Shown: positions 105-21,013 of the stretch, one piece after another
Position numbering within the stretch: the stretch's first letter is position 1
Layout of the letters: every line of letters starts with the position of its first letter
Assembly: GCA_017453325.1 (NCBI GenBank)
Contig: JAFTKK010000004.1
Location: 1 to 34,847 of the forward strand
Length of the DNA: 34,847 bases
Source of the DNA: Clostridia bacterium
GTDB lineage: Bacteria > Bacillota > Clostridia > Oscillospirales > CAG-272
Direction of reading: 5' to 3'
Position numbers and translations under genes: made by a program
The notes under the pieces: generated by a model
What the model saw: the letters and a program-made list of their open reading frames with translations, nothing else
The model's database searches: none
What the model was told of the DNA's origin: nothing

Positions 105-208
<104 letters not shown>

Positions 209-271
209 TTGCCCTGTATTGGTGGGAAAACCTGAAAGATTTTGCAACGCGAAATCTTTCCACAAAGGCGT

Positions 272-335
272 AGCCTTTGTAGACGAGCACCAGCAGGGCG
301 CCCCGTGGGCTGAACCAGCGACATCTCCGAGAAAG
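272..335. repeat. 64-bp direct repeat, copy A
   Basis: This matches 512-575 with a single difference (A317 versus G557), at a period of 240 bp. It contains the phrase GTAGACGAGCACC followed by an antisense copy of the tRNA-Asn T-arm region: 307-325 is the reverse complement of 133-152 with one base missing. Confidence 0.92.
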
Positions 336-511
336 AAGTCACAGCGGCGAAGCCGCGGTGACGGGCAATGTTTTTGCTTGCAAAAACTTGCCACGTGGCG
401 TAGCCACGTAGGTTAATAGGGCGCAGCCCGTCATGATGTCGCCTATTACATCAAGCGACCACGACGCTTGCGTCGTAAACAAGCACCAGCAGGGGGAGCC
501 CACGAATGAGC

Positions 512-575
512 AGCCTTTGTAGACGAGCACCAGCAGGGCGCCCCGTGGGCTGAACCGGCGACATCTCCGAGAAAG
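512..575. repeat. 64-bp direct repeat, copy B
   Basis: Second copy of the 272-335 repeat, with one substitution. Such near identity between non-coding copies points to recent duplication or to gene conversion. Confidence 0.92.
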
Positions 576-666
576 TAGCGTCCTGCGGACGCGTCATGAT
601 GTCGCTGTTATAGCAAACGATCACAAACGCGTAGCGGTCGTAAACAAGCACCGGCATGGGGGAGCC

Positions 667-20682: not shown

Positions 20683-20769
20683 GCCGGAATGATGGAATTG
20701 GCAGACGTGCTGGACTCAAAATCCAGTGGTAGCGATACCGTGCGGGTTCGACCCCCGCTTCCGGCACCA
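20683..20769 (+). tRNA. tRNA-Leu(CAA)
   Basis: A class II tRNA of 87 nt. The acceptor GCCGGAA pairs with TTCCGGC. The anticodon stem CTGGA/TCCAG encloses CTCAAAA, giving anticodon CAA, which reads UUG. A long variable arm (TGGTAGCGATACCG) is present, as in leucine tRNAs. The T loop is GGTTCGACC and CCA is encoded at 20767-20769. Confidence 0.97.
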
Positions 20770-20817
20770 AAAGCAAAGGCAGGACCCATGCGGGTCCTGC
20801 CTTTGCTTTTGGTGCCG
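20762..20817 (+). terminator. tRNA-Leu trailer palindrome / terminator
   Basis: A perfect 26-bp inverted repeat (20762-20787 with 20792-20817) around ATGC. The core is a terminator stem with a T4 run at 20807-20810. The stem continues 7 bp further (GGTGCCG) and pairs with the mature tRNA end CGGCACC. Confidence 0.88.
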
Positions 20818-21013
20818 AAGGCGGGGTAAGGATGAAACCGCTTAAAGTTTCCGCAGAAACTAACAAATCAGCAAAGCATATAGCGAAACTTTACATTATC
20901 AAGCACGTCAATAAAAGCCAAAGAGCAAAATGACAAATTTCACGAAAAAGCGCCCTTTTTCATAGCATAAAAGTGGGGAACCGCAAAATCGCGTTCCCGT
21001 GAAAGAGGTCTTT

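Follow-up and report, generated by a model that had tools for sequence, protein, structure and literature searches.

Integrative elements at tRNA genes leave a direct repeat of the tRNA 3' end in the attL/attR arrangement; the breakpoint often lies in the T-loop, a known integrase sub-site, and such elements accrete in tandem. BOX and similar modular intergenic elements of Firmicutes are multi-copy, structured, modular and non-coding. Hairpin loops of two to three bases closed by a C-G pair belong to the class described for stable DNA mini-hairpins. For template switching, a study on RNA genes such as rRNA (PMC8794818) documents the creation of perfect stems and multi-base compensation, and its authors expect loop inversions to provide the strongest support. 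Among the titles and abstract beginnings found by searching open-access papers, there is no description of zigzag arrays linked to tRNA 3' ends, and the available part of PMC8040213 does not name a tRNA-gene-linked class.

In a ruminant-gut bacterial genus, such arrays are found behind many of the tRNA genes. The window considered here (the whole stretch of 34,847 nt that was analysed) is contig C15 of a 1.97-Mb draft genome that is 83% complete (G000). All genomes used are metagenome drafts; the window begins at a contig end, and several other arrays are close to contig ends, where assembly may have merged tandem copies. The first-pass annotation had reported at least eight short palindromes within about 460 bp. 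The six hairpins it named are present, and those at 234-260 and 578-592 can be added, which bears out its count.

The parent of the array is tRNA-Asn(GTT) at 91-166 of the plus strand (ARAGORN; Rfam RF00005). Its end overlaps a terminator-like palindrome at 162-208, called by its sequence form, with perfect 21-bp arms, a 5-nt loop, an A-run and a T-run; a second one with 14-bp arms closes the array at 667-698, leaving some 460 bases of hairpins in between. If S denotes a sense tRNA piece, A an antisense piece and T a terminator-like palindrome, the locus reads S-T-hairpins-S-A-unit B-S-S-A-hairpin-S-hairpin-S-T. Unit 1 (211-298, plus strand) carries hairpins at 234-260 (arms 92% complementary) and 262-280 (8 bp, loop GTA), followed by a sense copy of the tRNA 3' part at 284-298 (score 23). 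An antisense copy of the T-arm and variable region of tRNA-Asn is located on the minus strand at 297-325, scoring 36 versus 20 for the best control from another tRNA. The multibranched unit B (307-443, plus strand) comprises hairpins at 338-362 (GTCAC-A-GCGGC-GAA-GCCGC-G-GTGAC, with one A.G mismatch), 364-392 (loop TT, i.e. CTTG), 393-409 (7 bp, loop GTA) and 419-429 (4 bp, loop GCA), and the CGTC behind the last of these is the tRNA-derived GTCATGATG; GTAG or CGTC at the palindrome foot is a tag of REP/RAYT systems. Further downstream we find a 7-bp hairpin with loop TT (461-476, plus strand; ACGACGC-TT-GCGTCGT), plus-strand sense copies of the tRNA-Asn 3' end at 482-500 (score 31) and of tRNA-Asn at 524-538 (score 23), and a minus-strand antisense copy at 537-565 (score 31), at which a unit-B-like unit with shortened interior starts for the second time. 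The remainder consists of a plus-strand hairpin at 578-592 (GCGTCC-TGC-GGACGC), a sense copy of the tRNA stretch GATGTCGCTG at 598-607 (plus strand, score 20) and a last plus-strand sense copy of the tRNA-Asn 3' end at 647-667 (score 23). The spacers between the hairpins, which the first-pass annotation had missed as such, contain sense and antisense pieces of the 3' half of tRNA-Asn itself.

Related features occur elsewhere in the window. A decayed solo unit lies on the plus strand 1.6 kb downstream and not directly beside a tRNA (2280-2375; BLAST match of 2334-2371 to the array). The region of tRNA-Leu(CAA), at 20683-20893 of the plus strand, includes a terminator-like palindrome, the tRNA 3' end copied in antisense (20810-20826) and, recognized by eye, a stem at 20843-20893; within this region no sense copy of its own tRNA was detected. 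Upstream of tRNA-Asn itself, the tRNA 5' end is repeated in inverted form (59-80), facing the real 5' end (83-104), with 22-nt arms that are 91% complementary; upstream of several tRNA-Asn and tRNA-Lys genes (59-104 of the window; L026:751-850; L062; L083) the tRNA 5' half appears as sense and antisense pieces that mirror the 3' arrays. Another kind of hairpin array, whose short palindromes are set apart by a repeated spacer (such as ATTTCA, GATGATAT or TGATGT), is present at 714-801 of the window as well as in L061, L065, L072, L177 and L347, and is apparently not tRNA-derived.

The arrangement looks self-copied and fits none of the repeat families that we checked. Judging from sequence, we assign a probability of roughly 45% to the reading that the array arose when tRNA 3' ends were duplicated by fold-back (template switching) at the level of DNA, combined with the spread of small structured non-coding elements. 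As the anatomy suggests, a replicating strand would fold back at T and copy S in reverse, resulting in S-T-A; it could then switch back at the near-palindromic T-arm and copy S again to give S-T-A-S, and repetition would produce tandem zigzags. With two fold-back points, T and the T-arm, the zigzag would be able to lengthen. The hairpins at the A/S junctions, whose changes are described below, may be renewed by fold-back copying as well, so that both arms would often change together. A further module, R2 (see below), would have spread to sites of this kind and to other places within the bacterial family. The conserved feature would be the pairing of a folded DNA strand, and we claim no host function for the array. 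We infer the copying process from its products, namely copies that match their host tRNA and have defined breakpoints, with paired arm changes in several of them and with phylogenetic limits; single-stranded DNA as the folded form and mobility as the cause of the R2 distribution are likewise proposed on the basis of the products. A bolder version, which we regard as doubtful, would be a new gene-less mobile DNA element at tRNA 3' ends that rebuilds its arms from the adjacent tRNA, relies on self-primed fold-back synthesis both to spread and to renew its hairpins, and has a three-way-junction core recognized as folded single-stranded DNA.

To assess how far downstream regions match their own tRNA, the last 48 bases of each tRNA and of 17 tRNAs with other amino acid specificities were scored in the downstream 450 bases, leaving out tRNAs with another tRNA following within 120 bases, duplicates and flanks of less than 100 bases. 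The own copy was best in antisense, sense or either orientation for 12, 15 and 18 of the 27 terminal tRNAs in G000, for 12, 20 and 21 of 28 in G020, for 8, 12 and 16 of 24 in G003, and for 3, 8 and 8 of 25 in G018. Small samples, in which the tRNAs fetched are a subset, gave 1, 2 and 3 of 4 (G009) and 4, 6 and 7 of 8 (G019) within the genus, none in any orientation among 8 for the outgroup G028 of the same family, and 1, 1 and 2 of 17 for G067 of the same order. Pooled, this amounts to 73 of 116 tRNAs in the six genus genomes versus 2 of 25 in the two outgroups (P = 3e-7, with few control genomes and, as for every P value given here, related loci treated as independent). The same kind of array thus does follow other tRNA genes, a check that the first-pass annotation had proposed. 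A smaller version of the test with other controls gave antisense and sense bests of 4 and 6 of 9 for G020, 1 and 1 of 8 for G028, and 0 and 2 of 17 for G067.

Arms that follow their own tRNA favour fold-back copying. A reverse-complement copy of the adjacent sequence, as template switching produces it, is seen in the tRNAs of G000, G020, G003, G009 and G019 for which the own antisense piece is best; the signal is weak in G018 (antisense excess P = 0.16), which counts against our reading. The order of pieces speaks for it: in all 18 loci with both kinds of copy at a score of at least 24, the earliest antisense copy stands ahead of the earliest sense copy. The window is an exception that weakens the case, with its weaker sense copy at 284-298 (score 23) ahead of the first antisense copy. 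Among the tRNA flanks covered in G000, the pattern S-T-A-(hairpins)-S stands behind Asn, Gly, His, Lys, Met, Arg and Gln tRNAs; Leu, Cys, Gln(ttg) and Ser(tga) show S-T-A with no sense copy detected, which again favours a fold-back origin.

Breakpoints, as estimated from the edges of local alignments, fall inside the T-loop at the start of 25 of 52 distinct sense copies (P = 1.6e-8 versus a uniform start). This agrees with fold-back copying at the T-arm, and it is also what one would see if the units were tiny integrative elements, inserted at the tRNA T-loop by a site-specific recombinase acting in trans, with a displaced tRNA 3' end left behind each of them in tandem. We consider this quite improbable: the direct repeats of the tRNA 3' end, the T-loop starts and the tandem units agree with it, but it does not predict the antisense copies that are nonetheless present, the arms mostly follow the adjacent tRNA, and units of about 100-230 bp offer little room for genes. 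In L064 (positions 1-606), a frame that by eye resembles the end of a large serine recombinase runs into a tRNA-Asn 3' end and terminator, which lends the integrative reading some support and suggests that integrative elements also use the tRNA-Asn site. In L026 (1030-2270), two overlapping frames that by eye look like an IS3-type transposase pair separate the terminator of the second tRNA-Asn from its hairpin units.

Homologues of unit B could be aligned (305-445) from nine copies in seven genomes. The first-pass annotation had proposed conserved loops on covarying stems, and both copies elsewhere and compensated stems were found. RNAalifold returned a multibranch fold that includes hairpins 364-392, 393-409 and 419-429 and two pairs of 338-362. 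Of all cells, 98.2% are paired and six pairs are changed on both sides; covariation reaches 0.131, compared with 0.059 for shuffled alignments (reached in 0 of 500) and at most 0.077 for slid structures, and pair types are no more numerous than in the shuffles (203/500). A covariance model of the unit (R1; E = 9.1e-32 for the window copy, itself part of the model) matched 9 of 21 genomes of the same genus at E <= 1.1e-14, and none of 38 other genomes of the family or order. Two more genus genomes gave weak matches, one in G016 (E = 1.3e-3) and one in G002 (E = 1.9e-3), the latter falling in an array of the spacer-repeat kind (L177). Six named contigs from five assemblies ('Clostridia' and 'Oscillospiraceae' metagenomes) carry a piece that matches the unit, and sheep colon or goat cecum appears in the titles of four of these assemblies; collections of plasmids and phages contained no match to the window array. 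Between genomes, one hairpin slot harbours quite different hairpins, with constant tRNA-derived flanks. The unit adjoins tRNA-Asn (ARAGORN) in the window, L058 and L062. In L057, L059, L060, L061, L063, L066 and L067, ARAGORN found no tRNA in the fetched stretch, and in five of them the unit lies about 200 bases or less from a contig end. The link to tRNAs stated in the first-pass annotation is thus frequent but not strict, at least L059, L060 and L061 among the aligned copies having no tRNA in the stretch fetched.

The second module, R2, forms a three-way junction, has a GTTYA loop and follows Gly, Val, Leu, His, Gln, Ser, Arg and further tRNAs; a model search that included the window did not find it there. 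R2 is a family of structured non-coding elements not contained in Rfam 15, in a bacterial family of gut genomes. A first alignment had 12 of 20 pairs changed on both sides and a score of 0.361 versus 0.185, with pair types not above shuffles (457/500). For 25 distinct copies, 17 of 20 pairs are changed on both sides, with 72 two-sided and 36 unpaired cells and a covariation of 0.430 versus 0.177 (the alignment being fitted to the model). Matches occur in 31 of 196 genomes, i.e. 18 of 21 of the same genus, 12 from elsewhere in the family and one from a different family, and a single genome can have as many as 22 copies. In 100 loci picked around tRNAs, 33 matches were reduced to 30 by removing three double-counted places; all 30 lie downstream of the nearest tRNA, 26 on the tRNA strand and four on the opposite one. 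Among the 16 of 22 matches listed for G020, 11 are within 700 bases downstream of a listed tRNA. Copies from other genera retain the GTTYA loop, a constancy that plain mutation does not explain and that weakens the fold-back reading. In G147 (L333-L337), a non-coding element of about 180 bp is present in five near-identical copies with sharp edges and unrelated flanks; it looks like a dispersed element, and one internal hairpin has been swapped wholesale between copies.

Another reading takes the units for REP-like palindromes that a Y1 (TnpA-REP/RAYT) transposase moves. Such palindromes would be short, numerous and mostly extragenic, as found, and G000 does contain weak Y1_Tnp matches (26 bits). 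The association with R2, though, is absent: a Y1_Tnp match was detected in 14 of 31 R2-positive and 63 of 165 R2-negative genomes (P = 0.55), or in 15 of 31 if G020, matched in one of two scans, is counted (P = 0.32), and G147 with its five dispersed copies has no such match. A RAYT/Y1 transposase was therefore rejected as the mover, which makes this reading highly improbable. A frame with a weak match in the window genome encodes 187 amino acids (G000:C66:10014-10259; 26 bits), and some relatives show similarly weak matches.

Hairpins are dense at these loci. Of 3602 overlapping 460-base windows from 368 kb of G000, 11 contained at least six perfect hairpins with stems of at least 6 bp, among them 301-760, which takes in most of the array and the closing terminator. 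The flanks of 49 tRNAs of the genus had 7.66 non-terminator hairpins per kb (stem at least 6), versus a simulated expectation of 1.79 per kb with all hairpins counted (first-order Markov), and those of 25 outgroup tRNAs had 2.84 versus 1.59. Ordinary decay, i.e. duplicated tRNA scraps and terminators with chance hairpins, would fit the degeneracy of the copies and the scrambling of repeats that draft metagenome assembly can cause. We give it very little credence in view of a hairpin density four times the simulated one, covariation above shuffled and slid controls, and the same kind of copy in several separate assemblies. Of 125 distinct non-terminator hairpins with at least 8 pairs, 99 have loops of two to three bases and 93 have C-G closure, which again favours fold-back at the DNA level; GNA accounts for 18 of the 69 triloops and TNC for 6. 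The 368-kb sample of G000 contained 3.6 hairpins with stems of at least 8 bp per 10 kb, terminators included, versus 0.62 simulated, and GNA and CTTG do not dominate the loops listed for it, so the loop bias would seem to be peculiar to the flanks of tRNAs. Loss of SbcD as the reason why palindromes are tolerated was ruled out, as G000 encodes SbcD (168.7 bits).

Covariation far above controls, in unit B as in R2, would also be expected if the units were functional RNAs, transcribed by read-through of the tRNA terminator or from promoters of their own and folding under RNA selection. This is unlikely in our judgement, though several observations agree with it: the conserved GTTYA loop, the excess of GNA (18) over TNC (6) loops, and the 26 of 30 R2 matches on the tRNA strand, the last of which also weakens the case for fold-back copying. 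On the other side, terminator-like palindromes bracket the window array, four of 30 R2 matches are on the other strand, and no Rfam family was matched: the window yielded two tRNAs and nothing else at the gathering threshold of Rfam 15, and four module-bearing loci plus L076 (E <= 1) gave tRNA and 5S above gathering and 16 other matches below it.

Wobble pairs bear on this choice. As a reference we took 80 distinct tRNAs encoded in the same genomes and used their acceptor and T stems. Mismatched cells in R2 comprise 15 G.T and 12 A.C, compared with 70 and 9 in the tRNA stems (P = 5e-4); A.C being about as common as G.T argues against RNA and favours fold-back in DNA. The loop-closing pair of R2 is U.G or C-G, and without it the counts are 5 and 12 (P = 1.7e-6 versus tRNA stems). 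For the 19 strongest copies, the contrast gives P = 0.07 with the closing pair and 6e-4 without it. Two-sided to one-sided changes amount to 72:14 in R2, 10 of the 14 being at the closing pair, versus 145:31 in tRNAs (P = 0.86), so that with this pair counted one-sided changes are as frequent as in tRNAs, as an RNA would have them; without it the ratio is 71:4 (P = 0.009). The two-sided changes favour fold-back copying, and the dependence of the ratios on the closing pair weakens it, as does the P = 0.07 for the strongest copies. Hairpins with a single mismatch behind tRNAs have 12 G.T and 3 A.C (P = 0.40 versus tRNAs), which agrees with RNA and likewise weakens our reading. We are leaning towards folded DNA rather than RNA; the wobble test favours DNA only with the closing pair set aside or the A.C cells weighed. 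The first-pass annotation had left the choice between a folded RNA and single-stranded DNA; a palindromic element or folded single-stranded DNA is still a good reading, whereas an RNA read through from the tRNA is less supported, given the bracketing palindromes and the R2 mismatches.

Tandem units illustrate how stems change. In those behind the Val tRNA of G019, the hairpin H2 is replaced as a whole arm pair between copies that are otherwise near-identical, and in those behind the Tyr tRNA of G051 several stems carry paired changes and no wobble; together with the swapped hairpin of G147, such whole-arm replacement favours fold-back copying. Two tRNA-Lys tandem pairs weaken it: the one in G001 shows single as well as paired changes, and in that of G020, Lys(ttt), the loops differ and the stems do not. 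In tRNA-Lys-like copies (L076 minus strand, i.e. G001:C87; L068, L066 and L070), the cloverleaf stems appear by eye to be kept, with short hairpins filling the D-loop, anticodon loop or T-loop; two such copies in G001 have differing hairpins in some shared slots.

If fold-back copying is indeed at work, stems that covary, which usually serve to prove a functional RNA, can come about wholesale when DNA is copied at tRNA genes, and the genus would offer a natural setting for following template-switch or fold-back mutation at dozens of loci. If instead the units are RNAs, they would constitute a family of RNAs that is undescribed, covaries rapidly and is linked to tRNA genes.

Compared with known systems, the arrays have the 3'-end direct repeat, the T-loop breakpoint and the tandem accretion in common with integrative elements at tRNA genes, but differ by units of 100-230 bp, antisense copies and arms mostly matched to the host tRNA. 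With BOX elements they share a multi-copy, structured, modular and non-coding form, whereas the attachment to tRNAs and the host-derived arms set them apart. REP/BIME elements and their RAYTs (PMC3733652) are alike in being short extragenic palindromes in many copies, some of them close together and in opposite orientation; the arrays differ by tRNA-copied arms, stems that vary between neighbours and no Y1 association found. Hairpin elements of organelles (Volvox palindromes and the RHE of sponges; PMC2670323, PMC2800124) are likewise described as short, selfish-looking palindromes crowding non-coding DNA, whereas our arrays are bacterial, tied to tRNA 3' ends and built of alternating sense and antisense tRNA pieces. 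The template-switch RNA hairpins of PMC8794818 resemble them in the reverse-complement copy beside its source, and perhaps in the perfect stems from one event and the joint alteration of both arms; those events concern RNA genes such as rRNA, whereas here one genus has tandem zigzags at many tRNAs, with added hairpin modules.
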